Assembly (NCBI RefSeq): GCF_014647375.1
Contig: NZ_BMPB01000003.1
Span: forward strand, 62,001 to 126,000
From: Parabacteroides faecis
GTDB lineage: Bacteria; Bacteroidota; Bacteroidia; Bacteroidales; Tannerellaceae
Reading direction: 5' to 3'
DNA: 64,000 nt
The notes beneath the pieces were generated by a model that saw nothing but the letters and a program-made list of their open reading frames with translations, searched no databases and was not told the origin of the DNA. Positions 27,787 to 54,057 of the stretch are shown in pieces. The position numbers and the translations under genes were made by a program. Positions within the stretch are counted from its first letter, which is position 1. Each line of letters begins with the position of its first letter.

Positions 27787-27801
27787 ATTATTTTAATCAG
27801 T

Positions 27802-29529
27802 TTATCTGGTAAGCGACTGTCCTGCCGGAACGATCGAAACAGCCTCTCCTTTCCCTAACGCCAGCTTGAGAAGTCCGTTGTCCACAGGTATTGCCGATAG
27901 TTTCCGTGCCGGTTCGTTCATGGAGATAGAATAAACATCTACGGCACCGACCTTCTCCCACCCTTCCGGCATCAGCCAGCTATGGCTTTCGTATCCGTCG
28001 CCGGAATAGGCGATGATCTCGTTGTCGTTCCAAAGTGCCGGAACGAACAGGTTGTCGTTCTCACGCAGGATGAAATCGCCTTTACGGATGATGTTCTTTC
28101 CGTCTTCCACACGGGCAATGACCCCCTCGCTGTAATACAGGGCCTCATCGACAAAGGCAACCCGCTCCAGGCGGCTCAGGTAATACCAGGGCAATGTCAT
28201 GGTACAGAACTGGGACAGGAAGCCGGGTAGATTGGCCAGATCTTTCTGGAAAATCTCCTCTCCCTGCATGCTGGAACCGAAACGGAAATCGCCCTGCCCT
28301 TCCCGGTGGGTACGCCCCCTTGCCGACAGACGTTCGGGAATCTCCATCTGGAAGTTCTTATCGTCCGGGAACCACCACGACATCGGTTGAAGACCGACAA
28401 AGCCTTCGCCGGCAGGATGAGCCCAGAAAATGCCCTCGCCCGTCACGTCGAAGCCCTTTTCCCGCCAGTATTTGAATATCTTCCGTTGTGTTTCCACCTC
28501 TTTGTAGATGTCGATGCCTCCGTTTTCGGGCTTGGCATGCCAGGGGCTAAGCGGACGGTTCTCCGGTTGCCAGTACGCCATAAAAGCGTCGATATGGATG
28601 GTATGGCCGTCTTTCAGTTCGGGAATCATGTCGATCAGATGGTCGATACGGGGTTTGGCAAAGCCTTTCTCCCACTCTTTCGTATAGCTTAGATGATAAG
28701 CTTTATGGCCTTTGACGTATTCCCAGATAGATTTCAGGTTGCCGTTGGCATCGCGGGCGATAATATCGTTCTTGATGTAAGTATCCCACAGGGGGCTTTC
28801 CTCAAAAGCATCGACCATATTGATGTGCAGGCTGATCGTTGTGTTATAGGCACGCGCTTCACGGATCAGCCAGCGGAGGCTTTCAAGGGCGGTGGCATCT
28901 TCTTCCCGTTTCAGCTTGGGGTTGACGATACTCCAGTCAGGATAGAGATGGTCGTGACCACCCCGTTGCCAACCGACCAGGTAGATGATCTTGGGAATAC
29001 CGCGTGTCAGATTATCCACTCGTTTCACGACATCGAGCGCGTGGCCGAATGTACAAAGGCGGGATGGGTCTTCATGCTGGAAAATCACGTTGTTCGGATC
29101 GGGTTCGTTCAGTTCGCCGTCGTACCCCATAAAGAGTTTCAATACCAGTGTCTGGTGATAGTCGCGGTAATACGGAGCGACAACGACTCTCTTCTTCGCC
29201 TGGTAAGTCGCGCCGTCTTTCTGGTAGACGGCAGTCACTTCTGCCAGTCCGCCGTCCTTCGGGATCAACTGATCGCCGGATAAAGCGATAACCTCGACAT
29301 TTCCGCTGGCACTGACCGTACGTACGGACAAAGCAATATCGGACAAAGGAAGATCGGTGGTCTTTCCATTGGAATAACGACCGGTAACATGAAGAGTTCC
29401 CCGTTCACCCGGATTACGGACAGGGTTCAGGGTTTCCTTATCCAGCCGGATAGTGATCTCCTCCAGTTTGTTCTGCATACTACAGGACAGACAGAACAGG
29501 GTTATTAGAATATAGAAAAGTGTTTTCAT
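27802..29529 (-). CDS. GH101-like lipoprotein with N-terminal Ig-like domain, copy 2
   Basis: A 575-residue lipoprotein (lipobox 'LFCLSC'). Residues ~22-118 form a bacterial Ig-like domain ('EITIRLDKETLNPVRNPGER' to 'YQAKKRVVVAPY') that the two paralogues lack. The catalytic-type region has 'YLVGWQRGGHDHLYP', 'SLHINMVDAFEESP', 'TIHIDAF' (candidate nucleophile D314) and 'DVTGEGIF' (candidate acid/base E365). The flexible surface anchor and Ig spacer suggest that it acts on large substrates outside the cell, while the other two are probably periplasmic or released. The gene lies 50 bp after the DUF6067 gene in the same operon. Confidence 0.78.
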   Translation of the reverse strand: MKTLFYILITLFCLSCSMQNKLEEITIRLDKETLNPVRNPGERGTLHVTGRYSNGKTTDLPLSDIALSVRTVSASGNVEVIALSGDQLIPKDGGLAEVTAVYQKDGATYQAKKRVVVAPYYRDYHQTLVLKLFMGYDGELNEPDPNNVIFQHEDPSRLCTFGHALDVVKRVDNLTRGIPKIIYLVGWQRGGHDHLYPDWSIVNPKLKREEDATALESLRWLIREARAYNTTISLHINMVDAFEESPLWDTYIKNDIIARDANGNLKSIWEYVKGHKAYHLSYTKEWEKGFAKPRIDHLIDMIPELKDGHTIHIDAFMAYWQPENRPLSPWHAKPENGGIDIYKEVETQRKIFKYWREKGFDVTGEGIFWAHPAGEGFVGLQPMSWWFPDDKNFQMEIPERLSARGRTHREGQGDFRFGSSMQGEEIFQKDLANLPGFLSQFCTMTLPWYYLSRLERVAFVDEALYYSEGVIARVEDGKNIIRKGDFILRENDNLFVPALWNDNEIIAYSGDGYESHSWLMPEGWEKVGAVDVYSISMNEPARKLSAIPVDNGLLKLALGKGEAVSIVPAGQSLTR

Positions 29530-29579
29530 AAAATAATTTGTTTACACAGAGTAATATGATAAAAGAGAAAAAGGTGAGT

Positions 29580-32500
29580 CTAAATTTCAGATACAATGAT
29601 CAGCCATCCGTGTTTCGGATCGACCGGGATCAGATCGGCTGGCGTAAACTCCTGTGCTTCCTGAAAGTCGGTAACAGCCGGAGCCTGCATACGGACAGAC
29701 GACGGATTCAGACCTAATTGCTTCCAGTCGATATTCAGTTTAACCTCTTTCTTTGCTCCGGAATAGTTACCGATCGAGAGAAGCGTTTTGCCTTTATTCA
29801 CGTACGCCGTTACTTTCACCTCTTTATCCGAAGTGGTTACAGCTGGATTCTTTTCCCAAAAACCGATCATCTGTGCATCCATGATCCCGAAGTCATCCCA
29901 TAACCTCCAGATATACCGAGGATCGCAGGATACCCCTTCCGTCAGCCAGGGTTGACGAACGGTCATGCCGTACTGCATGCCCAGCCATTTATTACCGCCG
30001 CCATGCAACATATCCCCCATCAGACCGAACGGGATACCGGAGACTTCCACCAGCCAGTTTGCCGGAGACATCTCGTCATACATAAAGCTTTCGCCGAACC
30101 AAACCTTATCCACATAAGGGAAATATTCCGCATACTGGGTAGCCGGTCCGCGTGAGAAACCAGTATTTGAATGCAGGTCGATGATACAACCCGGCTTCAC
30201 TTCTTCCATCGCATGACGCATCCGTTTCAGCATATCGCGACCGAAAGCGACATCATCCAGGTACAGCCCGTCGATACCGGTATGCTCCACCAGCCAGGCT
30301 AGTCCTTCCACATAATAATTATACCAGCGGGAATCGCCCGTTGCTGTCAGGACGGAAGCATCGGCTGCCACGCCCAGCTGCTGGTCTTCCAGATGCTGAT
30401 ACCATTGAGGAGTATAATCGGTTACATAATGCTCCCGGCACCAGGGGAAACCGCCACCGTTACCACCTTGCAGTATCTCGTCTCCCAGACTGCGTAAGGC
30501 CCATATCTCAGGGACTACATTCGTCAGTTCACGGATCGTATAATAAAGTTTCACCTTACAACCTTTGCCGTGCCATTCATCCACAAAGTCTTTTATCTTG
30601 TCGGCCGTAATGAACGGATAGTTGATGAACGGGTTCAGCGCGTTGGCATGGTGTACGTTGATGATCTTAATACCGGCGTCGAGGTTCTCCTGTCCCGGGG
30701 TAGGTGCTCCGCCGTTATGGTAATAACGGTCGGTAAACTGGCTATGGCTATTCACTTTCTTTACCGGGGTGATCAATAAGGCAAAATCGAACGTCAGGTT
30801 CTCGCCGGCTTTGAGGGTACGCTCGCCGCTGTATGCAGTAGCCGTTGTCCGGTTTCCGCTACGGTTGATGCGGAAACCACCCTTGCCGTTGTTATACCAG
30901 CTTTCGGGATAAGCAGGACGATAGAGGTTCAGCAAAGGGCCGGTATAACTCGCTCCGCGTAATTCGCAATGAATACCGGCTTTTTCGGAACCACACCAGA
31001 AACTGTCGAAAGGCCATAACCAGGAAGTACTTTTGGAGGTAGGGATAGATACGGCGTAATCATGTACCGTCTTTCCCTGTGTCTCCCAGCCTCCGGAATA
31101 GTTGGCAGGGGTCTCCTGTCCGGGTAGGCCCAATCCCATAAAATAAGGGGCTGCTTCGCTTTTCATCGGTATCTCCAGCCGGATATCTTCGATCTGTAAA
31201 TCCTTTTTGGGAGTGACGGAATAAACGTAGTTGATCCAGCCGTCAAACTCCATCGTACCGTTGCAGGTCAGTGTCAGATCATCGTCTTCAGCTTTCCAGC
31301 TACCCGACATTTTTCCTTCGGATTGCCCGGTCAGGTCGACGGTTCCGTTCAGTTTCTTTTCTCCCGAAGAAGTACGGATGATAAAGCGTACGGGAGAAGC
31401 CAGCAGTTCATGCCCCCAGGAGTCGACAGAGGTCGGCAGGGCGGTCTGCATATCGAGCGATACCGTACGCCCCAGACAGGAAATACGATTGTCGGACAGA
31501 GACATATCGGTATATCCCTCTGTCGGTTTGTCACTGATTCCTCGGGTAGAATTGAGCCAGCGCAGGCGGCTATGACGCCAGAGTTCGTTATCTCCGCGGT
31601 CTGCCAGCATTTTACCGGACACTTTCAATTCGATATCCACAGGGACAGCATATCCTGTTTCGTCTGAAACAACAATAACGCCTTTATAAGTGCCGCCGGG
31701 TTGGTCTGCTTTCAGATCCACCCCGAACCACAACGGCTGGACCGCATCGGGTGCTACGCTCACCTTTTTGGTAAAAGGTTTTCCCAACGGATTCACTCCG
31801 TTTATATTAAAACAGGTAATAGCTTCCGCCGGGATCACATTGTTTCCGCTTTTTAGGCCGGATGTTTCATAAGTAATGCTTTTCAGTTCCTGGTTTCCCG
31901 CCCATATACCCAACTGGAACGCATAATATTCGTTGGGCATGGCAGCTCCTTTAAACAAAGAACGGTCCTGACCTTGCAGCCATTTGTAAGGTACATTCGT
32001 TTTCATCCGCACAGGGAAAGAACGATCCTCCGGAAAGACCAGGAAACGGCCGGGATTGGCTTGCCTGTATTGCTCTTTCTCGCCTGCTGAGGCCGTTACT
32101 TCCATCGGGAAGAAGCTGTCGAACTGCGTACGCGATTCCACGCGGGCGATCGTAGCTTCCGGAAACTGTCCGGCAGAAGAGGCGGACGATGTAGCAGACA
32201 GCCATTGCCGGTCAGGTGCATCTTCCTTCGGATAGTATCCCCGGTGATAGTTCCCCCAGCCTTCCTGTACGCGGTAAGGCAGATAATAGAAGAAATAGGT
32301 TCCCTTCCTGCTGACGGGACCGAACAAGAGTTCACATTGTTCATTATCCACTCTCAGCCGTTGGATATTGGGGATCGTATCCCCTGTCTCCGCATCGATT
32401 ATCAGAAAACAGCGATCCTCCACCTCTTTATCCGGACGCCGCCAGTCGAAAGAAAGTCTGACGGCATCGGCCGGGGCGGCAACGGTCAATACTGCACGGT

Positions 32501-32624
32501 GATTACCCAGAGCCTCGTTCCACGGAGTCTCCGCTACGGCATAAGAATATGGAGCCTGAACGGTATTCCCACCACAGGAAAATCCGAGACAGGCAAATAA
32601 GATAGACAGTAATATATGTTTCAT
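29580..32624 (-). CDS. DUF6067 / GH123-like glycoside hydrolase lipoprotein
   Basis: A 1014-residue lipoprotein (lipobox 'CLGFSC'). The N-terminal ~600 residues look like beta-sandwich domains ('GTYKGVIVVSDETGYAVPVD', 'WGHELLASPVRFIIRTSSGE'). The C-terminal half is a barrel-like catalytic region with 'INVHHANALNPFINYPF', 'CKVKLYYTIRELTNV', 'IDGLYLDDVAFGRD' and 'IIDLHSNTGF'. This is the DUF6067 family, related to the GH123 beta-N-acetylgalactosaminidases. The Asp pair in 'LYLDDVAF' is a candidate active-site feature. Its place among three GH101-like genes supports a GalNAc-containing substrate. Family activity is only partly known, so the substrate is inferred. Confidence 0.72.
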   Translation of the reverse strand: MKHILLSILFACLGFSCGGNTVQAPYSYAVAETPWNEALGNHRAVLTVAAPADAVRLSFDWRRPDKEVEDRCFLIIDAETGDTIPNIQRLRVDNEQCELLFGPVSRKGTYFFYYLPYRVQEGWGNYHRGYYPKEDAPDRQWLSATSSASSAGQFPEATIARVESRTQFDSFFPMEVTASAGEKEQYRQANPGRFLVFPEDRSFPVRMKTNVPYKWLQGQDRSLFKGAAMPNEYYAFQLGIWAGNQELKSITYETSGLKSGNNVIPAEAITCFNINGVNPLGKPFTKKVSVAPDAVQPLWFGVDLKADQPGGTYKGVIVVSDETGYAVPVDIELKVSGKMLADRGDNELWRHSRLRWLNSTRGISDKPTEGYTDMSLSDNRISCLGRTVSLDMQTALPTSVDSWGHELLASPVRFIIRTSSGEKKLNGTVDLTGQSEGKMSGSWKAEDDDLTLTCNGTMEFDGWINYVYSVTPKKDLQIEDIRLEIPMKSEAAPYFMGLGLPGQETPANYSGGWETQGKTVHDYAVSIPTSKSTSWLWPFDSFWCGSEKAGIHCELRGASYTGPLLNLYRPAYPESWYNNGKGGFRINRSGNRTTATAYSGERTLKAGENLTFDFALLITPVKKVNSHSQFTDRYYHNGGAPTPGQENLDAGIKIINVHHANALNPFINYPFITADKIKDFVDEWHGKGCKVKLYYTIRELTNVVPEIWALRSLGDEILQGGNGGGFPWCREHYVTDYTPQWYQHLEDQQLGVAADASVLTATGDSRWYNYYVEGLAWLVEHTGIDGLYLDDVAFGRDMLKRMRHAMEEVKPGCIIDLHSNTGFSRGPATQYAEYFPYVDKVWFGESFMYDEMSPANWLVEVSGIPFGLMGDMLHGGGNKWLGMQYGMTVRQPWLTEGVSCDPRYIWRLWDDFGIMDAQMIGFWEKNPAVTTSDKEVKVTAYVNKGKTLLSIGNYSGAKKEVKLNIDWKQLGLNPSSVRMQAPAVTDFQEAQEFTPADLIPVDPKHGWLIIVSEI

Positions 32625-32644
32625 GTTATTAGAATTTTAATAGG

Positions 32645-34159
32645 CTAAAAACCTGATTTATGACATCCGGTAGAAGGAAACACAGAGACAGCCTCATCCG
32701 GTTCGAGCGACAGGCGGACAGATCCGTCAGTGCAGACCTCGCTGGTTTTATAAAAGATACCGGAAGGCGTTATCTTATAAATATCCACGCTGTGTACGTC
32801 CGACCAGTCGGGTGGCAACTGCCAGGATTTACCGGAGTAGCCTTTTACGGAATAGGCCATATACTCACGACCGTCACGCCAGAGAACCGGTATAAAAAGA
32901 TCGTCCTTATCCCTCAACAAACGTTTGTGATGAATGATAGTCGAATCCTTAAGCGAAGCGGTCAGGTCATCGTTATAATAAACGACACGATTCTCGCCTT
33001 TCCCTGTCAGTTTTTCCGGTTTGTAACGGTTCAGATAGACGTAAGGTAACGTTCCCGTATAAAACTGGTAACGGTATTTATCTATCCAGTTGACGTCAGG
33101 TAAAGAACCGTTTTCCAGATTACCGAAGCAATCTTCGCCACGTCCGCTCATACCGAAAAGGAAACCCAGCTGGAGCTGTTCTTTCGTCAGGTCCGGGAAT
33201 TGTTTGGCAAAGAGATAAGATGCACCGCCGGTTGTCAGATAAGCGGGATATTTCATATAGTCTGCTTCGGTCGCTTCAAACCACAGATACCAGGGAGTCA
33301 GCCCGATGAACAGGTCTTTGCCTTCCCGCAAGCGGTTAAAACTTTCGTGAGTGACGTCGATACCTTTTCCCCTGAAATAACGGAATATTCTTCGCTGATA
33401 GCTCTCTTCCTCTTCCCACGAGATCTTTTTATACGGGTTGTCCCGCACGAAGAAAGCATCGATCATGATCGAACCGGCCTCCCCGATACAAGGCAGTAAT
33501 TCCAGTAAGGCATCGATCCGCCTGACAGCATAGCCGCTCTCCCACTCGTTTTTATAACAGATCTGGTAGGCTTTACGGTTGTTCCATACGCCGATCTGCA
33601 TCGGTGTCCCGTCGGTATTCCGGGAGATAAAACCCTTGGAGAGGTATTCATCCCAAAGCGGACTGTCATCATAAGCGTCCGTCATATTCACATGGACACT
33701 GATACAGGTACTATATTTCCTTGCCTCTTTAGCCAGCCAGAGCAAAGATTCCCGCCCGGTAGCATCGCATTCCCTTTTCAGTGCGTTATTCACTTCAAAC
33801 CAGGCCGGATATTTATCGTCGTGCCCGTTATATTGCCATCCTACCAGGTAAAGCGTCTTCGGGAGTCCCCGTGTGACAGCATCCATCTGTTTTACCAGGG
33901 ACAGGACCTGTTCAAAGGTATAACAAATAACCGGATTGCCTTTCTCATCCGGATAAGACAACATGATCTTCATCAGCTGCATCTGATGATAGGCATGCAT
34001 ATAAGGCTGTTCGGGACGCATCGTTTTCGTCCAGTCATATTTCTCTCCGGAGATATTCCGCCACGATTCCGGGGAAGTGCCCTGGGAGAATAAAGAATGC
34101 GTGGCCAACAAAAAGGCTAAACACAATAATCCGAAATGAGTTTTCTTCTTCATATTCAT
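32645..34159 (-). CDS. GH101-like endo-alpha-N-acetylgalactosaminidase family protein, copy 1
   Basis: A 504-residue secreted protein (signal ending 'THSLFSQ'). Core motifs match its two paralogues: 'LVGWQYNGHDDKYPAW', 'SVHVNMTDAYDDSP', 'SIMIDAFF' (candidate nucleophile D234) and 'DVTHESF' (candidate acid/base E272). The C-terminal ~100 residues form a beta-sandwich with 'VVYYNDDLTASLKD'. It is the first enzyme gene of module A, after a hairpin that separates it from the surface lipoprotein gene. Residues around the acid/base differ in each copy (SEW, GEG, HES), which suggests that the three enzymes prefer different glycans. Confidence 0.78.
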   Translation of the reverse strand: MNMKKKTHFGLLCLAFLLATHSLFSQGTSPESWRNISGEKYDWTKTMRPEQPYMHAYHQMQLMKIMLSYPDEKGNPVICYTFEQVLSLVKQMDAVTRGLPKTLYLVGWQYNGHDDKYPAWFEVNNALKRECDATGRESLLWLAKEARKYSTCISVHVNMTDAYDDSPLWDEYLSKGFISRNTDGTPMQIGVWNNRKAYQICYKNEWESGYAVRRIDALLELLPCIGEAGSIMIDAFFVRDNPYKKISWEEEESYQRRIFRYFRGKGIDVTHESFNRLREGKDLFIGLTPWYLWFEATEADYMKYPAYLTTGGASYLFAKQFPDLTKEQLQLGFLFGMSGRGEDCFGNLENGSLPDVNWIDKYRYQFYTGTLPYVYLNRYKPEKLTGKGENRVVYYNDDLTASLKDSTIIHHKRLLRDKDDLFIPVLWRDGREYMAYSVKGYSGKSWQLPPDWSDVHSVDIYKITPSGIFYKTSEVCTDGSVRLSLEPDEAVSVFPSTGCHKSGF

Positions 34160-36648: not shown

Positions 36649-39600
36649 TTAAAATCCAAGGTTCAAACTAATGGCATATACACGTTGCATCGGATAATCA
36701 TAGTTGTTTGTACTACCATTTTCCGGGTCAAAGCCATATTTCGTAGCAGGTGAAATCGTAAATAAATTCTGACCACTCAACACTACCTGACATTTATAAA
36801 GCCATTTGATGTTCTTCAACAATACTGAACGAAAATCATAACCCAACTGAAGCGATTTCAAACGGATATAACGTCCGTTGACCAACCAGAAGTCGGAGGT
36901 AACATAGTTATTATTTCCATTCACACTCGAGTTCATCGCTATTCTCGGAAATTTAGCATTCGTATTATCCGGCATCCAATAATCCAGCTGATAAGGATAC
37001 ACCATAGTATAACCACCGGTTGATTGTCCGCGTACCACATCTTCAATATACATGTCACGTGAAGTTGCTCCCTGGAATAAGATATTGGCAGAAAATCCCT
37101 TCCAGGAAAGATTGGCATATATACCATAGTTGCCGCGCGGAAAACTGTTTTTCCCGATACGCCACTGGTCGGCACCGTCAATGAATCCGTCACCATTCAT
37201 ATCTTTATAAATGATATCACCGGCAACCAGATTGGAAGAACCGTCGCGACGGGGTAAATTCAATGTCTGATCAGAGTTCTGGTAATATCCCTGGTTCGTA
37301 TAACCCGTACCATAATATCCGGTCTGCTGAACAGCTCTCAGATAGGGATTCTTCTGATTTGCCAGGTCTTCGTCCCAGGCAACGGCTACCAACTGATCGA
37401 AATAAGTAAAGTTAGCACCTACCTCATAATTGAAATCACCCGCATGGTCTTTCCAGGAAAGATTAAATTCATAACCGGCACGGCGGTGTTCGCCATTAGA
37501 CTTCACTTTCGGAAGAGATAATCCCAACGGATCTGCATAGCCGACATTAGAAGGTGATGTTAGAAAACCTGTCGTTTTCATATAAAAATAGTCAAAGCTA
37601 CCAGACAGACGTTCTCCCAATGTATTAAAGTCGAAACCAATATCAGTAGAGTTAATCGTATACCAGGTTATATCGTCACTGATCAAATCTCCCTCACTGA
37701 AAGTCGGAACAATTTTACCATCCAATACATAACCGCGTTCTGTCAAACCATAAGATGTCAAATAGCTAAACCGGCTTACATCTGCCATCCCGACCTGGCC
37801 ATAACTGGCACGAAGTTTCAGGAAATTCAATATATTACGTTCTTTCAACGGCCTGAAAAAACTCTCTTCCGATACAGCCCAGGCTGCAGATCCGGAAAAG
37901 AAATTACCCCAGCGGCGATCTTTCGGAAACAAGTCACTGCCATCATGGCGTAAAGAACCTTCTATATAATATTTTTTCTTATAATTATAAGAAGCCCTGG
38001 CCACCAAGCCGGCACTTCCTCTTTCCCATTCATTACCACCGTTTTCCATTGTATCAGAAGGTCCGGCCCCCATCTGGTCGATCATAAAAACATAATTTTT
38101 ACGTTTGGCATCGAAACCTCGTCCAAAAGCGTAACTTTGCTCATATCCCAATGTGGCTGACACGTTATGCGTTTCGTCCAAAAAGGAACGATTGTAATCT
38201 ACAAAGTACTGCATTGTCCACATACGATTGTTGGAAGTTGTATATTGCAAGCTAACAGGAAAATCCGGCCCTTTATTTCCCTCTAAATCATATTGGGGAG
38301 CAGTCTTGTTCCATTCTTTGGTATCATACATTCCAAAACGGTAATTACCTCCCACTTTTACCTTCAATCCTTCCACACCGTATACATTCCATTCGGCATT
38401 AAAAAGACCGGTAATCATCTTGTTATCAAACTTAAAATAACCGGATTCAGAAGAGACTTCAGCAACGGGATTGTCGTACCCTACATAGATCTGTCCGTCT
38501 TTATTATATGCTAATCCCATAGGTCCCTGATTCTGGATGTGTCCCCAGGTTTGCCAGTAGCCGGTTGAATATTGGGAACGTGGAGTTTGCATAGTCGAAA
38601 TATAACCATCCAAACCAAACGTCAGTTTCAATCCCAGATCCTTAAACTCCGATACTTCATTCATTCTGACATTGTATCTTTTAAACCATTCCGTATCGGC
38701 TTTGTACATCGACTTCTGGTCGTATGCCTGAAAAGAAACATAATACTTATTAAATTCCGAACCACCACGTACTGCCAGCGAATGCTTAGTTTCCGGAGTT
38801 AAATTACGCAGCATGATCTTTTGCCAGTCCGTATTCGGATAATTATACGGATCAGATCCCGTACGGTATTTTTCGATTTCCTCATCTGTCCAGCGAGGTT
38901 CCAAACCATACAGATTACGTACAGTATTATCGAATGATGCCCGTTCGTATGAATCCAGTTTCTTTTCCAAATAAGTCGGTTCACTCCAACTCTGGTTAAA
39001 ACTATAATCTACACGAAGACCTTTCAAACCATTCTTCGTCTTCACCACCAATACGCCATTTCCGGCACGTTGTCCGTATACGGCAGCAGCAGCGGCATCT
39101 TTCAAAATAGACATTGATTCGATATCGTCTGAGTTTAAATTAACAAAGTCATTATACTCTGAAACAAATCCATCGATAACAACAATAGGCGTTCCGCCAC
39201 CACGAATAGAAACCGTGGATTGTTTATTCAAACCACCACCGGCTGAAGTAACGATCAAACCTGTAGCACGCCCCGCCAACGCATCTGTTACGTTAGCTAC
39301 CGGTACGTTTTTCATTTTCTCAGCATTCACAGTCGAAACCGCTGAAGTAAGATTACGTTTTGAGTTGGTACCGTAACCGATCACAACGACTTCTTCCAGT
39401 GCTTTCGAGTCTTCCTTTAGTGTGATATTCAATGTTGTTTTATTACCTACAACCACTTCCTGTGTTGTGTAACCGATAAAAGAGACGACTAAAACCGGAG
39501 ACTTTAGATCTCTCAGATCCAGGGAGAATTTTCCGTTCATATCGGTCGTTGTACCTATACCTGCCTGATCTTTTACCAGGACATTGGCACCGATAACTGG

Positions 39601-40062
39601 CTCGCCGAAGTCGTCGAGAATCGTTCCGGTAACAATCGTATTAGGTTGTGACTGTTGCTTTACTTCTTCTTTCTTAAATAAAACGATATGTCTGTCCGTT
39701 ATTTTGTATCCCAACGATTTGTTACGGAGCAATACTTCCAATACTTCATCTATGGATTTGTTCTTCAGATCGACGGAGACTTTCTCATCCAGGTTCACCT
39801 CATTCAGTTTATACACGAAGGTAAACTCTGACTGGCTCTCTATGGAATTTAACACCTGAAGGATCGTTCCATTCATTTCAAGGTTCAATTTTGTTACCTG
39901 GGAATAGGATAATGCGGCTGTGGCTTCCCATAAACAAACAAAGAGGAACAATAAGGCTAATTTCGTTACTTTTAAAACTTGATTGCGTGTCTTATGAGAA
40001 ATATTTCCCTCATTCATAGAGCTTTTTGCCCCATGAAACACTCTAATTAAATGTTTATTCAT
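36649..40062 (-). CDS. SusC/RagA-family TonB-linked transporter with STN domain, module A
   Basis: A 1137-residue outer-membrane channel. A long basic region precedes the hydrophobic export segment ('KLALLFLFVCLWEATAALSY'), as in the other two STN-type SusC proteins here. Residues ~58-112 are a secretin/TonB short N-terminal (STN) domain ('TILQVLNSIESQSEFTFVYK'), which passes a signal to FecR. A carboxypeptidase-regulatory-like domain ('VTGTILDDFGEPVIGANVLV') follows, then 'LEEVVVIGYGTNSKRNLTSA' and the plug and barrel. The fecR gene lies 167 bp upstream, with a predicted antisense RNA between them. An internal start at 40017 is also possible. Confidence 0.95.
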   Translation of the reverse strand: MNKHLIRVFHGAKSSMNEGNISHKTRNQVLKVTKLALLFLFVCLWEATAALSYSQVTKLNLEMNGTILQVLNSIESQSEFTFVYKLNEVNLDEKVSVDLKNKSIDEVLEVLLRNKSLGYKITDRHIVLFKKEEVKQQSQPNTIVTGTILDDFGEPVIGANVLVKDQAGIGTTTDMNGKFSLDLRDLKSPVLVVSFIGYTTQEVVVGNKTTLNITLKEDSKALEEVVVIGYGTNSKRNLTSAVSTVNAEKMKNVPVANVTDALAGRATGLIVTSAGGGLNKQSTVSIRGGGTPIVVIDGFVSEYNDFVNLNSDDIESMSILKDAAAAAVYGQRAGNGVLVVKTKNGLKGLRVDYSFNQSWSEPTYLEKKLDSYERASFDNTVRNLYGLEPRWTDEEIEKYRTGSDPYNYPNTDWQKIMLRNLTPETKHSLAVRGGSEFNKYYVSFQAYDQKSMYKADTEWFKRYNVRMNEVSEFKDLGLKLTFGLDGYISTMQTPRSQYSTGYWQTWGHIQNQGPMGLAYNKDGQIYVGYDNPVAEVSSESGYFKFDNKMITGLFNAEWNVYGVEGLKVKVGGNYRFGMYDTKEWNKTAPQYDLEGNKGPDFPVSLQYTTSNNRMWTMQYFVDYNRSFLDETHNVSATLGYEQSYAFGRGFDAKRKNYVFMIDQMGAGPSDTMENGGNEWERGSAGLVARASYNYKKKYYIEGSLRHDGSDLFPKDRRWGNFFSGSAAWAVSEESFFRPLKERNILNFLKLRASYGQVGMADVSRFSYLTSYGLTERGYVLDGKIVPTFSEGDLISDDITWYTINSTDIGFDFNTLGERLSGSFDYFYMKTTGFLTSPSNVGYADPLGLSLPKVKSNGEHRRAGYEFNLSWKDHAGDFNYEVGANFTYFDQLVAVAWDEDLANQKNPYLRAVQQTGYYGTGYTNQGYYQNSDQTLNLPRRDGSSNLVAGDIIYKDMNGDGFIDGADQWRIGKNSFPRGNYGIYANLSWKGFSANILFQGATSRDMYIEDVVRGQSTGGYTMVYPYQLDYWMPDNTNAKFPRIAMNSSVNGNNNYVTSDFWLVNGRYIRLKSLQLGYDFRSVLLKNIKWLYKCQVVLSGQNLFTISPATKYGFDPENGSTNNYDYPMQRVYAISLNLGF

Positions 40063-40069
40063 ACATTTG
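40062..40069 (+). promoter_or_regulatory. antisense -7 box (TACATTTG) on the susC start codon, module A
   Basis: TACATTTG reads on the plus strand and its first base is the complement of the A of the susC ATG. The same placement is seen in modules B and C. A -33 TTTG at normal spacing was not found. Confidence 0.55.
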
Positions 40070-40074
40070 CAAAA

Positions 40075-40173
40075 TCTAGTTGATTATTTATGGCAATTGG
40101 TAGTTGCCTTTTACTTAAATGATCTGCGCTTAGAGCATAAATTGGGGATGTTGGTAGCATTCCCAATTTTTTT
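40075..40173 (+). ncRNA. predicted antisense sRNA over the susC leader, module A (DonS-like)
   Basis: A transcript from the TACATTTG box would start near 40075 and end at a strong terminator (12-bp stem 40139-40150 / 40158-40169, then T-run to 40173). The ~99-nt RNA is complementary to the susC leader. A 5' hairpin, GGCAA / TTGCC (40092-40108), has the same loop, TTGGTAG, as the terminator. Position and size resemble the DonS class of cis-antisense RNAs that repress Bacteroides polysaccharide loci. The start point is estimated as ~6 nt past the box. Confidence 0.65.
40139..40173 (+). terminator. Rho-independent terminator of antisense RNA, module A
   Basis: AAATTGGGGATG pairs with CATTCCCAATTT (one G-U pair) across a 7-nt loop, followed by a T-run on the plus strand. 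There is no plus-strand protein gene for it to end, which implies a non-coding transcript. Confidence 0.75.
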
Positions 40174-40229
40174 AACTGTTTTACGTACTGTTCATGGTCT
40201 TCAATTAATTTTTAAGGTTCAACAATCGT

Positions 40230-41114
40230 TTATCTGATATACACATCCCTATCCTTTATCTCAAATTTATATCTCATCGAGATTTGAAGGATAGACAATA
40301 TTTCCTCCAGCGACTCCTTATGCGTAAATTGTGCCGTCAGGAATACATCTTTCATTGATTCGTTTTTCAAATGAAACTTCACACTAAAAGAACGTTCCAG
40401 TACACTGAGGATTTCTCCGAATGTGATTTTTTCGAAAAAGAAGTCACCTGTCATCCACGAAGTATAGGAAGAGGTCCTTACCGGACGTACTTCGATACTT
40501 CCACTCTGCTTATCGAACAGGGCCTGTTCACCCGGAATCAAAATCTCATCGGGTGTCGGGGTACTGTTTGTATCAGTATATAATGCAACCGAGCCTTTAA
40601 CCAGCGTCGTTTCGATCAAATCCGAATCCGGATCTGCCCAGATATTGAATTCTGTTCCCAGAACTCTCACATGCATGCCCTCCAGGTTTACAATAAAAGG
40701 TTTCTCTTTATTCTCGGTTACATCAAAGAACGCTTCACCCGTCAACTCAATCTGCCTTGTTTTACTATCAAACACTTCAGGATACCGGATATGTGAATTT
40801 CCATTCAGCCAGACAACGGTACTATCCGGCAACAAAACCTGTGTCTTTGAACCTATCATGGAAGTAACCTCCAGATAAGCCAACGGCCTCGGTTCCGTAT
40901 ACATCTTATATAAGAAAGAAGAAACGACCAGCAAGGCAACCGAAGCAGCGATCGATGCATATTTCCAGACGGAAGAAACACCCATTATGATCGTATCCGA
41001 ATTCATTACCCGCTGCCATAGTCTATCGTAGACAACATCCGGTTCTGTTTTAACCGGTTTAAACCGAATGCGTCCTATAATCTCTTCGTCTCTTCTATTT
41101 TTTATATCCGACAT
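40230..41114 (-). CDS. FecR-family anti-sigma factor, module A
   Basis: A 294-residue inner-membrane regulator. The cytoplasmic N-terminus (~residues 1-45) would hold the ECF sigma factor, followed by one membrane helix ('YASIAASVALLVVSSFLYKM'). The periplasmic part contains the FecR domain ('VLLPDSTVVWLNGNSHIRYP', 'GEAFFDVTENKEKPFIVN', 'HVRVLGTEFNIWA') and a C-terminal DUF4974 domain ('FEKITFGEILSVLERSF'). It receives the signal from the STN domain of SusC. The sigma gene lies divergently, 660 bp away, not directly upstream in the same direction. Confidence 0.93.
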   Translation of the reverse strand: MSDIKNRRDEEIIGRIRFKPVKTEPDVVYDRLWQRVMNSDTIIMGVSSVWKYASIAASVALLVVSSFLYKMYTEPRPLAYLEVTSMIGSKTQVLLPDSTVVWLNGNSHIRYPEVFDSKTRQIELTGEAFFDVTENKEKPFIVNLEGMHVRVLGTEFNIWADPDSDLIETTLVKGSVALYTDTNSTPTPDEILIPGEQALFDKQSGSIEVRPVRTSSYTSWMTGDFFFEKITFGEILSVLERSFSVKFHLKNESMKDVFLTAQFTHKESLEEILSILQISMRYKFEIKDRDVYIR

Positions 41115-41774
41115 CTTTTTTTATTATGATAATTATCCTGTTCACTTATATAGATGACAGCTTCCGGAAAAAACCCTAATAAAGAATTTCATTTTTAACA
41201 TTTTAATGAAAGGGGCAGAAAATTATATATACGGATATACACCTTTCGGCTTTTTTATATATATTTGTTTCGTGCTTAAAAAGCAAAGCGTTGCGGCACA
41301 TTCACATGTTAAAAACATAAGCGTTAATGATATTATCCTAAATACGAAATCTAGACAATTTCATAGTAACCGGGTAGTAGACAACAAACGCTCATGTTCT
41401 TTATCTTGTTATATACGTACGTATACCCATGGGTGTACCTATATATCAAATAAAGAGCGTGGGTATGTTGTTTGTATCGGTTACTAAGGTAGTCTAGAAC
41501 CTCGTATTTAGGTACATTCAGCAGTTCCCACGCTTTCTTTATGTTCAATCCGGACAGGGAATTTTCGGATAAGCAAATAGGTCTACCTTATGAAAAGCAA
41601 ACGTCCATCATTGATTCATCCTATATATCCATTTGATTTACAGGAACATTACTCTGCCATTTATTTTATTAAAAACACAGAGAACAAACTGCACGTAAAA
41701 GAAAAGCCGTATATTTACTCCTGTAAAAACTGCTTTTTCCTTAGTATCGAGATAAACCACTGAACGCAGTACGT
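41115..41774. other. 660-bp AT-rich gap between divergent fecR and sigma genes
   Basis: No convincing protein gene is present. The gap holds a lone plus-strand -7 box (TATATTTG, 41260-41267) and the long degenerate palindrome at 41337-41512. Short reading frames here cross the palindrome and have no protein-like composition. Confidence 0.7.
41337..41512. repeat. 176-bp degenerate inverted repeat
   Basis: Matching blocks occur in mirror order on both arms: CCTAAATACGA (41337) with TCGTATTTAGG (41502-41512), CTAGAC (41351) with GTCTAG (41492), GTAACCG (41366) with CGGTTAC (41478), CGCTC (41389) with GAGCG (41455), TTTAT (41400) with ATAAA (41450), and TATATA (41410) with TATATA (41440). The centre is ACCCATGGGT. 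No target-site duplication is apparent. It could be a decayed MITE-like element, a cruciform control site or a structured leader RNA. Confidence 0.8.
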
Positions 41775-42335
41775 ATGAAATTCAAAATGAGCGGATACAC
41801 GAAATCATCCTTGATTGATAAAATCACCAAGGGAGACGAAAAAGCCTTTCGTCTGCTTTTTGACATGTACTATCAGCAGTTGTTCCATCAAGCTTTTTAT
41901 TACCTGTCATCCAAGGAACAAGCTGAAGAAGCGGTATCCGACGTATTCTTTATTATATGGAAGAAAAGAGAGACGCTGGATAAAATAGAAAATATTGAAA
42001 GCTACCTGTATACCTCCGTAAAACATCAGGCATTACATTATATCCGCCGGACGAACGAGCCGGAAAAAGCTCCGTTGGATCTGTACCATATCGAAGTGAT
42101 ACCGGACAACAATAATCCTGAATCCAAACTACTGGATGAGGAACAACGGGAACTGATACAAAAAGCGATCAACTCTTTACCGGAAAAGTGCAGGGAAGTA
42201 TTCAGATTGTTTCTTTCCGATAAACTTAAACAGAAAGAAATCGCCACTTTGCTGGAAATATCACAAAAAACAGTGGAAGCCCATATTGCTACCGGCTATA
42301 AGAAAATACATGCTTATCTGAAGAAAAGGTATTGA
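41775..42335 (+). CDS. ECF RNA polymerase sigma factor, module A
   Basis: A 186-residue ECF sigma factor. Region 2 is 'DEKAFRLLFDMYYQQLFHQA' with 'SDVFFIIWKKRETLDKIENI', which recognises the -10 element. Region 4 is 'ALNSLPEKCREVF'-type sequence, here 'INSLPEKCREVFRLFLSDKL', followed by helix-turn-helix 'KQKEIATLLEISQKTVEAHI', which contacts the -35 element. It belongs to the large Bacteroidetes ECF group linked to FecR and SusC with STN. Its gene runs opposite to fecR, leaving room for separate control. It probably activates the module A susC operon. Confidence 0.93.
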   Translation: MKFKMSGYTKSSLIDKITKGDEKAFRLLFDMYYQQLFHQAFYYLSSKEQAEEAVSDVFFIIWKKRETLDKIENIESYLYTSVKHQALHYIRRTNEPEKAPLDLYHIEVIPDNNNPESKLLDEEQRELIQKAINSLPEKCREVFRLFLSDKLKQKEIATLLEISQKTVEAHIATGYKKIHAYLKKRY

Positions 42336-42709
42336 CTCATGAAATATAATATACATACAACTCTCATTCATTCCGACAGGCAAAATGTCAAATGTGTCAA
42401 AATGCTATTTCAACCTATGTCTGGAGCGATTATACCAGCAAGGGATGGAACTGATGAATTTTACTGTATTCTCCGAGGGTTTAGGTTTATCAAACAGGAT
42501 GCTTTATGACAAAATAACAGAACAGATAGATAACATTTACCCCTATATTATATCCATTTATTTTACAAATCAGATATTTCCATTACTTATAACGCTCTAT
42601 TTTCTAACTTTTTCACAGACACTCCAGAGATAAATACTGCTAGAAAACATACTATTCAAGCTAAAAAAAGCATCAGTCTATCCTTCGCGCAACCACTTTT
42701 AACACTTTT

Positions 42710-42767
42710 TTCGTCTTAAACGAATCACCTACTCATTTAAAATGAAAAAAAATTCGTTTTAAACGAA
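42710..42767. promoter_or_regulatory. two 15-bp palindromic operator-like sites
   Basis: TTCGTCTTAAACGAA (42710-42724) and TTCGTTTTAAACGAA (42753-42767) differ by one base and are 43 bp apart, about four helical turns, so a dimeric regulator could bind both on one face of the DNA. They lie just upstream of a near-consensus promoter. Confidence 0.6.
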
Positions 42768-42785
42768 CTGACTATTTTTCCAAAA

Positions 42786-42818
42786 TTTGTTTTAGAAAAC
42801 GATTCCGGGGTATATTTG
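42786..42818 (+). promoter_or_regulatory. near-consensus Bacteroidetes promoter (TTTG-N21-TATATTTG)
   Basis: TTTG at 42786-42789, a 21-nt spacer, and TATATTTG at 42811-42818. This is the best match to the -33/-7 consensus noticed in the window. Transcription would start near 42825, 15 nt before a short ORF, and would run into the 3' end of the opposite-strand GH43-like gene. Confidence 0.65.
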
Positions 42819-42839
42819 TTAATTATTGTAACAAAAAAA

Positions 42840-43004
42840 ATGTCTAAAAGCACTCTTCCGGAAGATCACCCGTTACCCATTCAGCAATATATCAGACATA
42901 TTAATACAGAAATAGGAAATACGAAATCATTTTGCCAAGATCAATTTTCAGTAAACAGAATAACCTATGGCTATATTCAAAATAAACTCATTCAACCGGG
43001 GTAG
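42840..43004 (+). CDS. possible 54-residue small protein
   Basis: The frame starts 15 nt after the predicted start point of a strong promoter. The product ('MSKSTLPEDHPLPIQQYIRH...') is hydrophilic, mildly basic, has one cysteine and no signal peptide, and I do not recognise it. The frame overlaps the end of the opposite-strand GH43-like gene by 17 bp. An in-frame ATG at 42816 lies inside the -7 box and so is unlikely. It may instead be a non-coding transcript or a truncated regulator. Confidence 0.3.
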   Translation: MSKSTLPEDHPLPIQQYIRHINTEIGNTKSFCQDQFSVNRITYGYIQNKLIQPG

Positions 43005-44840: not shown

Positions 44841-46700
44841 CTATTTGACAACCGGTTTCTCCTTCAATGTTCCTCCTTCATTATACGTTTGGTTATTAGG
44901 CAAACCTTTCTTTCCGGTACCGTCTTCCATCAGTTTCTTCAACTCATCCAAATGGGATTGATAGACGTTTCTGGGCTTGACACCATATTTCTTGCAGATA
45001 GAGGTAGCCATTCCGACCACTTCCCCCATCATTCCCGTTGTACGCATAACACGGACAGTTCCCAAAGCAACATGAGTCACGCTTATATTACGGCCTGCCA
45101 TAAACAGATTGTCGATATTCCGGGAATACAGGCAGCGGTAAGGAATCGGATACGGATAAATATTGATGTGTTTGGCAATCGATTTGAATTCCTGCCCCGG
45201 GAAGTTCTTCGTGTTAGCGGGATCGGGATAGTGTAAATCGATACTCCAGGTCGTAGCGGCTGTCCCGTCTTCATGCATCACGTATTTACGGAGGTCGTCT
45301 TCCTTCAATATATAATCTCCCATCAGACGGCGGGACTCACGTTTGCCGGACACATAGGCGACCCAACCCAACTTACGGTTACGGTATTGGGAGTTATCCT
45401 TCATACGGTTCTTCAGGTAGTTCCAGTTGGAATATACGACCAATAATCCGTAATCACGTATGCGTTCGAAATCTTTTATCTGGTCATAATTCATTCCTGT
45501 CTCCCAGGTCCATTCTCCCATCATCACCTTTTCGCAATTCTCTTCGTTAAATTCCACACCGTAGTTGAAGTGAGAAAATGCAGAAGGCTTTTTATTATCG
45601 ACCGAATACCATTGGACCGATGCACCCATTGTCATTTTATCCGGCTTCTCCGGTGCGGTATTTTCACCGAATTCTTCCCGGCTCTCACGACCCATACGAT
45701 AATCGGCACCTGCCAGGTAACCGATCGTTCCGTCACCTGTACAATCCGAGAATAAAGGAGCCTTAAATTCGAGTTCTTTGCCGCTTTCAATATGTTTGGC
45801 CACGACCGAAGTAATATTATTGCCATCCTTCGCGACACCGATAGCACGATAATTGAGGAAAAGAGTTATATTCTTTTCGTTTGCCAGCCAGTCCAGCTTC
45901 TTCCGGTCTTCATAATAATCCGCCGGTTGTGCATTTCCTCCGCGGGTCGGTCCAAATTCTTTCTGCAGGTTTCCCAGTTCTTTGTAAGGACCTGCCTCGA
46001 TACGGCCACCCAGATGTACACGTATCTCCGAACTGTTGTTACCTCCGACAACGGGACGGTCGTTGATCAACGCGACCTTGCATCCGAGCCGGGCAGCGGA
46101 TACCGCCGCACTCATCCCTGCAATCCCGGCCCCTATGACAACCAGGTCATACTGTCCTGCGAGGGCAGGCGTATCAGGCAAACCCAATGCCTCGCGCCGG
46201 AAAGCTTCCAGCTCTTTTACATCTGAAGGCGGCACTTTCCCCTCTTCCGTCGTAAAATAGATTGCATCGCAACGGCCGTCGAAACCGGTCAGGTCCTGCA
46301 GCTTCAGGACAGTCTTCCGATCCTTGACGGATATTTTCCCGGCAACCTGCCACATCCAGGCTGAACCTTCGGCTCCCAGGGGAGAAATCAACTTTTTGTT
46401 TCCGACAGACAGACTGAACTTGCCGGGGCCTTCCCCGTCTTTCCAGGGAGAAGTCCAGTTATACGTCCGGACATAAGCATAATAGGTTCCTGTTTCAGGG
46501 AAAGTAACTTCCGTATAAGCATCCTCCACCGGTTCACCCATGCCATGTGCCAGCAGGTAAGGCGACCCCATCAGGTCCATGAACTGCTGGTCGACAACCC
46601 AACCGCCTTTATGGGTGAAGCTCTCGGCTTCGACGAACAGATCGGCGGCACGTATCGTTCCAAAACTCAATAATAAAAAGAATGTCAGTACTGTTTTCAT
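44841..46700 (-). CDS. secreted FAD-dependent oxidoreductase with N-terminal beta-sandwich, copy 2
   Basis: A 619-residue protein with a signal peptide ending near 'GTIRAAD'. Residues ~20-152 form a beta-sandwich resembling a carbohydrate-binding module ('DLFVEAESFTHKGGWVVDQQ', 'GTYYAYVRTYNWTSPW'). From ~183 it is a flavoprotein of the FAD_oxidored family: the dinucleotide motif 'VVIGAGIAGMSAAVSAARLG', 'RPVVGGNNSSEIRVHLGG', 'FSDCTGDGTIGYLAGA' and a C-terminal FAD motif 'NLFMAGRNISVTHVALG'. The reaction is unknown. A flavoenzyme exported with a sugar-binding-type domain suggests oxidation of a glycan or a released sugar in the periplasm. It follows its paralogue by 16 bp. Confidence 0.85.
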   Translation of the reverse strand: MKTVLTFFLLLSFGTIRAADLFVEAESFTHKGGWVVDQQFMDLMGSPYLLAHGMGEPVEDAYTEVTFPETGTYYAYVRTYNWTSPWKDGEGPGKFSLSVGNKKLISPLGAEGSAWMWQVAGKISVKDRKTVLKLQDLTGFDGRCDAIYFTTEEGKVPPSDVKELEAFRREALGLPDTPALAGQYDLVVIGAGIAGMSAAVSAARLGCKVALINDRPVVGGNNSSEIRVHLGGRIEAGPYKELGNLQKEFGPTRGGNAQPADYYEDRKKLDWLANEKNITLFLNYRAIGVAKDGNNITSVVAKHIESGKELEFKAPLFSDCTGDGTIGYLAGADYRMGRESREEFGENTAPEKPDKMTMGASVQWYSVDNKKPSAFSHFNYGVEFNEENCEKVMMGEWTWETGMNYDQIKDFERIRDYGLLVVYSNWNYLKNRMKDNSQYRNRKLGWVAYVSGKRESRRLMGDYILKEDDLRKYVMHEDGTAATTWSIDLHYPDPANTKNFPGQEFKSIAKHINIYPYPIPYRCLYSRNIDNLFMAGRNISVTHVALGTVRVMRTTGMMGEVVGMATSICKKYGVKPRNVYQSHLDELKKLMEDGTGKKGLPNNQTYNEGGTLKEKPVVK

Positions 46701-46716
46701 GATACATATATTTACA

Positions 46717-48636
46717 TTAGTCTAATTTATCAGCATCGGGAAAGCCGGGTTTACCCACACCCTGCCGCATCAACGTCTGCAAAGCCGGCAAATACATTTC
46801 ATATATCCCTCTGGGATACGTGTCGAACTTTTTACACAACGAAGCCGCCATGCCAACCACTTCTCCCATCATTCCCCCGGTACGCATCACCCGTACCGTT
46901 CCGAGTGCGACATGAGTCACGCTTATATTCCGGCCTGCCATGAACAAATTTCCGACATTTCTCGAATACAGGCAACGGTACGGAACTGCATAGGGTTTTA
47001 TCTCCTGCACATCACAATAGGACAGGAACGGTTCTTCGTCCATTCCCGCTATCGGTTTAGGATAATGCAGGTCTACTCCCCAGGTCGTCGTAAAGGTAGC
47101 ATCTTCATAAGAAATATTCTCCAGCAAATCCTGTTCACGCAAAACGATATCTCCCAGCAAACGACGGGACTCACGTTTTCCGCCGATATAAGCGACCCAT
47201 GCCAATTTCTTTCCGGCAAACTGTTCTTTCTTACTGCTTTGATTTTTCAGAAAGGCCCAATTACCATAAACGGCACGAAGGGCATGGTCCCTGATATATT
47301 CAATCTCCGTGATCTGATCTCTGTCGAGACCAGCTTCCCAATCCCAGTCGCCCCGCGTGGCGGGAACACAGGTTTCCTCTGTGAAGCGGATAGCCCACGG
47401 GCAATCAGGGAACCCGGAACGGTCAGGCGCATCCTCCGCATACCATTGCACAGACGTTCCCATGACCAACCGGTCGGCTTTTAAGGGAGCTCTGGGTTCA
47501 CCCGTTTCATCCTTGCTTTCCCTGCCTACCCGATAATCGGCTCCGGCAAGGAATCCTACTTCACCATCCCCCGTACAATCAGCAAATAATCGTCCTCTAA
47601 AGATATATTCTTTTCCGGAAATAATGCTTTTCCCGATCACAAAAGTAATCCTATCCCCTTCTTTTCTAAGATCATACACCTGCATATTCAGGAATAAGCT
47701 GAGGTTTTCCTGCCCCTGCAACAAAGATTGCTTTTTCTCATCCTCATAATTTGTCGCCGGACCTGCATTATGGATTTTCTTTTCCGGGTGACGCTGTAAA
47801 ATCTCCCGGATCTGTTTACTTCTTGCCGACGATGGGTCTTGTTTCGCTTCCCAGTCGTTCCAATGCCCCACAACGCCGAACTCATCAAGCAAATTGCCCA
47901 GGTTAGGGTACGGCTGGCTGGCAATCAGGCCGGAAAGACCGACACGGACTTCCGAGCTATTGTTCCCGCCCAACACCGGACGATTCTGTATCAATGCGAC
48001 CTTACAACCCAGACGGGCAGCACTGAGAGCTGCACAGCATCCGGCCATACCGCCGCCAACGACAACCAGATCATATTCACCGGCCTCTTCCGGTTCAGCA
48101 GGCAACCCCGACATCTTCCGGCGAAAATCAGCCAATTCATTTCCTCCGTCCGGGGGTAGTAAATCCAGCGAAGATGTCAGAAAAACAGCGTCGCACCGGC
48201 CTTCAAAACCTGTCAGGTCATGAAGTTCCAGACTGTTTTCACCGACCTTCAGCAGAACTGTTCCTCCATCCTGCCAATGCCAGACCGCCTTTTCCGTCCC
48301 GAAGGTCGTACGCAAAGCTTTTCCATTCAACAGCACTTCAAAACGTCCCGGAGAACCGGGCTTATCCCATTGCTTCACCCAATCCCTGGTTCGTACCCAG
48401 ACACGATACTCACCAGCCTCCCGGACCTGCAGGAGAGTCGAGGCATTTTCCACCGGGACTCCCATCCCGTGTGCCAGCAGATAGGGAGACCCCATTTGCC
48501 CCATAGACTGGTTATCCAGAACCCATCCGCCTTTTTTGTCAAAGCTTTCCGCTTCTATGAAAAGGTTATCCGCTTTTAAACAAGGAGAGAGTATCATGCA
48601 TATTATAATCCACCATTGTTTCATAAAAATCGACAT
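46717..48636 (-). CDS. secreted FAD-dependent oxidoreductase with N-terminal beta-sandwich, copy 1
   Basis: A 639-residue paralogue of the next gene, with the same plan: signal peptide (ending near 'SPCLKAD'), beta-sandwich ('NLFIEAESFDKKGGWVLDNQ'), then the FAD domain ('VVGGGMAGCCAALSAARLGC', 'RPVLGGNNSSEVRVGLSGLI', 'FADCTGDGEVGFLAGADYRV'). It has an extra segment after the FAD entry region ('WNDWEAKQDPSSARSKQIRE') that the other copy lacks. The middle of the two proteins differs more than the FAD-binding parts, so they may act on related but distinct substrates or in sequence. It is the first gene after susD of module B. Confidence 0.85.
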   Translation of the reverse strand: MSIFMKQWWIIICMILSPCLKADNLFIEAESFDKKGGWVLDNQSMGQMGSPYLLAHGMGVPVENASTLLQVREAGEYRVWVRTRDWVKQWDKPGSPGRFEVLLNGKALRTTFGTEKAVWHWQDGGTVLLKVGENSLELHDLTGFEGRCDAVFLTSSLDLLPPDGGNELADFRRKMSGLPAEPEEAGEYDLVVVGGGMAGCCAALSAARLGCKVALIQNRPVLGGNNSSEVRVGLSGLIASQPYPNLGNLLDEFGVVGHWNDWEAKQDPSSARSKQIREILQRHPEKKIHNAGPATNYEDEKKQSLLQGQENLSLFLNMQVYDLRKEGDRITFVIGKSIISGKEYIFRGRLFADCTGDGEVGFLAGADYRVGRESKDETGEPRAPLKADRLVMGTSVQWYAEDAPDRSGFPDCPWAIRFTEETCVPATRGDWDWEAGLDRDQITEIEYIRDHALRAVYGNWAFLKNQSSKKEQFAGKKLAWVAYIGGKRESRRLLGDIVLREQDLLENISYEDATFTTTWGVDLHYPKPIAGMDEEPFLSYCDVQEIKPYAVPYRCLYSRNVGNLFMAGRNISVTHVALGTVRVMRTGGMMGEVVGMAASLCKKFDTYPRGIYEMYLPALQTLMRQGVGKPGFPDADKLD

Positions 48637-53904: not shown

Positions 53905-53910
53905 TACTTG

Positions 53911-54007: not shown

Positions 54008-54057
54008 ACATGGATCTTTTTCTTATATAACCTCCTTTCTTTAATCGGTTTATAGCT

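Follow-up and report, generated by a model that had tools for sequence, protein, structure and literature searches.

A predicted DonS-type cis-antisense RNA at a FecR-linked susC leader, with its promoter box on the susC start codon

Introduction

DonS-type RNAs have been described as RNAs of 78-128 nt that lie divergent to susC and are repressive in B. fragilis (PMC7366714, PMC10994844, PMC11697453), and their mechanism is described as unknown in PMC11697453. In B. thetaiotaomicron, ten and later 32 PUL-associated antisense RNAs (asRNAs) were reported as transcribed, some of them on northern blots (PMC7366714, PMC10994844), and the correlations between these asRNAs and their PULs were inverse and, for some pairs, positive (PMC10994844). 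A housekeeping promoter accompanies 52% of the cis-antisense RNAs of B. thetaiotaomicron, and the consensus of its -7 box is TAnnTTTG (PMC7366714). Antisense RNAs have also been listed for Flavobacterium psychrophilum, where the authors point to the Bacteroides case as the model to follow in further work (PMC9723704).

Other RNAs with related features act in different settings. The FopS/GibS sRNAs form a multicopy family that acts in trans. They have a single-stranded seed and a single terminator hairpin, and repress the translation of susC-like mRNAs by binding close to the start codon (PMC11697453). The antisense RNAs that control plasmid copy number have stem-loops, a YUNR motif on one of two partner loops and a complementary leader as target, as stated for YUNR in PMC4485353. 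For pIP501, U-turn kissing through two loop pairs is named in the title of a reference listed in PMC4485353.

The RNA predicted here at the susC leader of a locus called module A resembles DonS in that it is divergent to the susC gene of a host-glycan PUL, is noncoding and has a housekeeping -7 box, and its predicted length of about 100 nt lies within the 78-128 nt given in PMC7366714. It differs from DonS (Cao 2016, compared here through the citing papers PMC7366714, PMC10994844, PMC11697453 and PMC9723704 only) in belonging to a Parabacteroides-like genus; relative to the description of DonS in those citing papers, it is further marked by a box locked to the start codon and by candidate U-turn loops that are identical in both hairpins. 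Unlike FopS/GibS, the module A RNA would act in cis and has two hairpins. An Rfam family is said to be deposited for FopS/GibS, and module A is without an Rfam match at the gathering threshold in a release that may not include FopS. Unlike the plasmid RNAs, it concerns chromosomal PUL control in another phylum, its promoter overlaps the start codon of the target, and kissing is predicted. In the literature searched, work on the loops, structure or kissing of DonS-type RNAs, or on such RNAs in Parabacteroides, was not found beyond PMC7366714, PMC10994844, PMC11697453 and PMC9723704, and the U-turn papers found concern other systems. DonS-type RNAs are already known; the start-codon register, the folded-strand evidence and the recognition model were not found in print in that literature.

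Results and Discussion

A predicted antisense unit at the start of the module A susC gene

The DNA analysed is a stretch of 64,000 nucleotides, referred to as the window. The original prediction had claimed that a plus-strand TAnnTTTG box lies on the start codon of the module A susC gene, that a strong plus-strand terminator with no coding gene before it follows, and that both hairpins have the loop TTGGTAG in common. All of these features are present (Table 1). The first T of TACATTTG is the complement of the A in the susC ATG, the whole strong terminator spans 40139-40173 on the plus strand, and the longest plus-strand ORF within the unit has 10 aa. Within the window, plus-strand TTGGTAG occurs at 40097 and 40151 only, which are the two module A loops. 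The unit had also been expected to be overlooked by gene callers, and it is indeed absent from the ORF listing as well as from the Rfam matches. The likeness to the DonS type, which completed the prediction, is supported by the location, the direction, the predicted size of about 100 nt, the -7 box, the terminator and the mucin-type PUL context, and it is further backed by the covariation, the wobble asymmetry and the excess conservation described below.

Compared with shuffled sequences, the unit (40073-40176) folds with z = -3.27 and the terminator (40139-40176) with z = -4.54. The two hairpins show covariation, and the unit is fully complementary to the opposite-strand leader. A scan for tRNA and tmRNA genes gave none, and Rfam at the gathering threshold gave no match in the window. 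A -33 element (TTTG/TTG) was not evident in 49 aligned leaders, nor by eye in module A, and a -33 motif was likewise not identified in the Flavobacterium johnsoniae data quoted in PMC7366714. A scan of 39000-43000 for E. coli-type promoters gave 13 sites, compared to 12.6 in shuffles, with none inside the module A unit.

Table 1. Coordinates of the features of modules A, B and C, numbered from the first letter of the window.
Feature	Position	Strand	Remarks
Module A susC-like TonB-dependent transporter with STN domain, presumed target mRNA	36649-40062	-	Pfam STN, Plug, CarbopepD_reg_2, TonB barrel
Module A -7 box of predicted antisense promoter	40062-40069	+	TACATTTG; consensus TAnnTTTG
Module A predicted antisense RNA, ~100 nt	40073-40173	+	5' end predicted from box, 3' end from T run
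Module A hairpin 1, GGCAA-UUGGUAG-UUGCC	40092-40108	+	loop UUGGUAG at 40097-40103
Module A hairpin 2 of intrinsic terminator, AAAUUGGGGAUG-UUGGUAG-CAUUCCCAAUUU	40139-40169	+	loop UUGGUAG at 40151-40157
Module A terminator T run, seven T	40167-40173	+	
Module A predicted ECF-sigma susC promoter	40193-40222	-	GACCATG (variant of recurring GCCTATG) behind AACCTTAAAAA-like stretch; putative promoter role
Module A FecR anti-sigma factor	40230-41114	-	Pfam FecR, FecR_C
Module A ECF sigma factor, divergent	41775-42335	+	Pfam Sigma70_r2, Sigma70_r4_2, Sigma70_ECF
Module B equivalent unit	53897-54008	+	box TAACTTTG at 53897-53904
Module B hairpin 1, UUGGUC apex	~53918-53964	+	
Module B terminator, loop UUGGCG then T run	53966-54001	+	
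Module C equivalent unit	63573-63694	+	box TAACTTTG at 63573-63580
Module C hairpin 1	63602-63640	+	
Module C terminator, loop UUGCAG then T run	63658-63687	+	

Target gene, predicted susC promoter and proposed mechanism

The SusC protein of module A has 1137 aa, and the nearest named relative of the adjacent FecR is from Parabacteroides gordonii at 83% identity, in a search that may omit the window's own species. SusD, three GH101-like enzymes and one GH123 enzyme are encoded 3' of susC, with the GH101-like and GH123 genes at 26425-34159 on the minus strand behind susC/susD. Module A is likely a mucin-type (O-glycan) PUL.

A short element recurs on the far side of the antisense terminators. 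CATAGGC or near variants (antisense orientation) lie past the terminator in 34 of 57 leaders, and 29 of these lie 17-39 nt beyond the stem, with the module A variant CATGGTC (40193-40199) having been entered into the search pattern only after it was seen. The CATARGC form was found 0 times before the antisense terminator, compared to 31 times after it. The CATAGGC-type pattern was not matched in modules B and C. On the susC strand, the GCCTATG element has a AACCTTTAA-like stretch upstream. The element is probably the -10 part of a FecR/ECF susC promoter. The susC mRNA would start near 40185. Its 5' UTR would thus include a full-length complementary copy of the antisense RNA, and the 5' end of the antisense RNA is predicted some 11-14 nt upstream of the susC ATG.

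The DNA at 40062-40173 very probably encodes a cis-antisense RNA of the DonS type, about 100 nt long, which would cover nearly the whole susC 5' UTR and probably represses susC. In plain terms, a gut bacterium seems to silence a sugar-importer gene with a short antisense RNA over the beginning of that gene until the sugar arrives. The sequence evidence for this reading consists of the signals, the strand that folds, the recurrence and the selection acting on both stems and loops; from it we infer transcription, the pairing route and repression.

The mechanism proposed is as follows. A housekeeping-type promoter with its -7 box fixed on the susC start codon would drive the antisense RNA away from susC, and the terminator beside the susC promoter would end it. 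Almost the entire susC 5' UTR would thus have its complement in the antisense RNA. The antisense RNA would be made steadily, and susC would be made through the FecR/ECF-sigma switch. First contact may occur through the loops, UUGGUAG against CUACCAA, by U-turn kissing, and twice. After kissing, the RNAs would zipper up, and translation initiation would be blocked or decay triggered. Leaky susC transcripts would be mopped up in this way and a threshold set; once the FecR/ECF switch is on, there would be more susC mRNA than antisense RNA and the system would turn on. Such a threshold suits an autoinducing transporter, because SusC, via its STN domain, is presumably itself the sensor of the inducer.

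Recurrence at FecR-susC junctions of the genome

The genome of the window (6.66 Mb) has 112 FecR_C matches, 82 of them in FecR-sized frames; the other 30 were dropped because their frames were SusC-sized. The FecR-susC junctions used come from 81 of the 82 FecR loci, modules A, B and C included, and L080 was dropped as it had no FecR-susC pair. An antisense TAnnTTTG box in the exact register of the start codon was found in 49 of the 81 leaders, compared to a mean of 0.12 at other offsets, and on the sense strand TAnnTTTG occurred 7 times in all in the 81 leaders. Five further leaders have the box on an in-frame ATG located 12 or 27 nt further inside, which gives 54 in all. The box is missing in exact register in 32 leaders, or in 27 when the two in-frame offsets are allowed. 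Among 37 genes of the window, picked by hand from 98 ORFs, only the three FecR-linked susC genes have TAnnTTTG at the start codon.

Terminators were counted at junctions with an intergenic distance of at least 60 nt (78 of 81 kept), and were called strong at E of -12 or lower. Strong terminators facing the antisense direction were present in 57 of 78 leaders and sense-facing ones in 2 of 78, with 0-2 per set in 20 shuffled sets; 21 of the 78 leaders are without a strong antisense terminator. The terminator tracks the box (47 of 54 leaders with the box, 10 of 27 without), and both signals in their exact form are found in 44 of 78 leaders. The antisense layout is confirmed as real and lies well above chance.

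Modules B and C have this layout in common with module A (Table 1), and their units fold with z = -5.07 and z = -3.47, respectively. Beside susD/susC of module B, two adjacent genes for FAD_oxidored proteins lie on the same strand (44841-48636, minus).

Conservation and covariation

In two relatives (leaders L097 and L098), the module A antisense unit is identical in 101/104 and 102/104 bases (97-98%), and the adjacent susC and FecR coding DNA is 80-82% identical. The first 101 bases of the susC frame are 95% and 91% identical in the same relatives, a level to be expected if part of the antisense promoter lies within them. The module B unit in L192 has an identity of 0.87, compared to 0.71 for susC and 0.75 for FecR. 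For the module C unit in six relatives the values are 0.73-0.86, compared to 0.60-0.65 for susC and 0.73-0.77 for the FecR end; L204 is an exception, with 0.73 for the unit and 0.76 for the FecR end. At 39962-40062 and in other leaders, many SusC proteins seem, by eye, to be N-terminally extended before the signal peptide, and the DNA of the module A extension is more conserved than the remaining susC, perhaps as part of the antisense promoter.

Covariation was scored for the two named helices in an alignment of 8 A-type leaders. Since the aligned rows are related, the counts that follow are not counts of independent events. In the module A helices 98.6% of cells pair, double-sided changes are found in 7 of 18 pairs (1 of 500 shuffles was as high), and the covariation score is higher than in any of the 500 shuffles and any of the slid versions. 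The number of further pair types shows no excess, as 492 of the 500 shuffles reached it. In hairpin 1, both sides have changed in 4 of 6 aligned pairs over the 8 sequences: GGCAA/UUGCC is replaced by GGUAG/CUACC or GAUAG/CUAUC, with the loop kept except in L002. For module C, 9 sequences were used, with L206 left out as it aligned badly, probably owing to the coordinates used for it; pairing is seen in 88.9% of cells, and double-sided changes in 8 of 22 pairs, a count that 0 of 500 shuffles reached. Within module C, all cells of the upper terminator stem pair, compared to 77.8% of those of hairpin 1.

These changes bear on a different account of repression, in which antisense transcription is real and represses through colliding polymerases or interference between promoters, while the RNA as such has no role. 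The convergent promoters do face each other, with predicted starts about 110 nt apart, and interference of this kind could act together with pairing. However, collision alone needs no selection on the RNA, such as is seen in the covariation, in the bias of G.U over A.C and in the constraints on the loops, and we consider it an unlikely explanation.

Loop sequences

UUGGUAG is found in both loops of module A and of the related leaders L150, L151, L153 and L154. The paralog L002 (same place as L007) has UUAGUAG in both; in L152 the loops UUGGUAG and UCGGUAG are one base apart, and in L171 (UUGGUAG and CGGGAGG) loop 1 is kept and loop 2 is not. The twin loops are thus equal in 5 of 7 aligned homologs of module A. 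L159 and L164, which have the box and a similar terminator with only short similarity, stand outside the A alignment; their loops differ (UGCAA is common by eye), and counting both, the tally is 5 of 9. Among the short, chance-like matches, L155-L157, L159 and L161-L164 were inspected, and L158, L160, L165-L170 and L172-L175 were left out. Twin loops with other letters are also found, UGCGUCAACA in L052 and L109 and CGCCAA in L058, L071 and L076. In a permutation test at a length of at least 7 bases, twinning was found at 3 of 57 loci compared to 0.54 expected (p 0.016). In a larger set at the same length it was found at 5 of 89 compared to 1.07 (p 0.0045), where one of the five (L106) is a stem-arm match as read from the sequence. 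That both loops are always alike is rejected, since only a subset is alike and L171 breaks the pattern. Loop twinning is a subclass and not a rule, with moderate support from the permutations.

The terminator loops are 6-7 nt long at 81 of 97 loci, compared to 6 of 16 control terminators of the window. A YUNR motif at the 5' end of the terminator loop, on either strand, was found at 42 of 97 loci, on the antisense strand at 19 and on the sense strand at 23, compared to 11.0 in shuffled loops, under a loop definition (innermost pair Watson-Crick) that was chosen after the first definition. Under that first definition the count was 25 of 86 compared to 9.7, with 2 of 16 among the window control terminators. 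Distinct loops gave 28 of 68 compared to 7.8 shuffled. The terminator loops of modules A and B begin with UUGG and so have the motif; that of module C, UUGCAG, does not. The excess of YUNR in terminator loops points to loop-loop recognition, and the either-strand pattern agrees with the statement on U-turns in PMC4485353.

Loops that recur between loci raise the question of partners other than the gene's own leader. The terminator loop CGCCAA is found at five leaders of the window's genome (L010, L058, L061, L071 and L076), some of which look like close paralogs, so that cross-talk is possible, and the UUGGUAG terminator loop is also found at L003. An antisense RNA acting mainly in trans on other leaders with the same loop would form a network of cross-silencing PULs. 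The stems, however, differ between loci, and complementarity beyond the loops is complete only in cis; we hold such a network to be very unlikely as the main role of the RNA.

Strand asymmetry of the stems

Where one strand forms a G.U pair, the opposite strand has an A.C mismatch, so the two strands of a hairpin can be told apart by their wobble pairs. Using a strand-symmetric hairpin search, the inner 8 pairs of the best hairpins of 63 leaders of the window's genome were read as antisense, and 69 G.U pairs were found compared to 4 A.C; 47 leaders favour the antisense strand and 2 the sense strand. The control with shuffled sequences gave 47 to 32. Among 34 leaders from other genomes, the inner 8 pairs gave 22 to 7, with 18 leaders to 5, and with the inner 6 pairs 15 leaders to 6 (p 0.08). 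The bias indicates that the selected structure in the window's genome is that of the antisense RNA. The folded and selected strand there is clearly the antisense strand as judged from these pairs, and the bias is weaker elsewhere.

That the hairpins instead serve the susC mRNA as an element of its 5' UTR (a stability hairpin, an attenuator or a protein site), with the antisense signals incidental, is very unlikely: the sense leader of module A folds somewhat better than shuffles (z = -1.80), with mirrored hairpins, but the antisense strand folds better (z = -3.27), no Rfam family matches, and the sense-strand reading is rejected by the orientation of the terminators (57 of 78 antisense, 2 of 78 sense) together with the wobble bias of 69 to 4.

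Coding explanations were also rejected. The longest small plus-strand ORF, MAIGSCLLLK at 40090, has one change in L150 and L151, and its start is not ATG in L152, L002, L153, L154 and L171. The antisense RNA of a type I toxin-antitoxin system would have a small toxin ORF as its target; the target here is a SusC of 1137 aa, and the antisense ORFs have at most 10 aa.

Occurrence in other genomes and wider significance

The antisense signals were also counted at FecR-susC leaders of other genomes. These loci were the best FecR_C matches or pattern matches with usable gaps, and are a non-random sample. In six genomes from other genera of the family, 24 leaders gave 6 boxes in register, 13 antisense terminators and 1 sense-facing terminator. 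The order-level set of 13 leaders gave 5, 11 and 2, respectively, and the phylum-level set of 19 leaders gave 4, 8 and 2. The set L034-L045, from which L034 was dropped as it had no FecR-susC pair, gave 7, 7 and 1 in 11 leaders; it includes Flagellimonas, Zhouia and Galbibacter, which we take to be Flavobacteriia. Some of these loci pair FecR with a doubtful ORF (e.g. L114, L115 and L120) and stay counted, which lowers the box frequency in the other-genome sets.

The 44 of 78 leaders with both signals, and examples that reach Flagellimonas, Zhouia and Galbibacter, suggest that antisense control is common at FecR-linked susC genes. A broader proposal, which we advance tentatively and with somewhat less than even confidence, is that FecR-controlled susC genes across the Bacteroidota have a hard-wired antisense switch, with a promoter locked to the start codon and locus-variable U-turn loops on either strand, and that in a subclass including module A one loop is used twice, its copies co-evolving. 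If true, this switch would supply the missing mechanism of DonS-type repression. Now that the folded strand, the anchor of the promoter and candidate loops for the contact are named, exchanging a few bases in the loops would put the mechanism of a DonS-type RNA to the test.

The number of FecR_C matches varies widely between genomes, with 2-49 in the six other genomes compared to the 112 found here.
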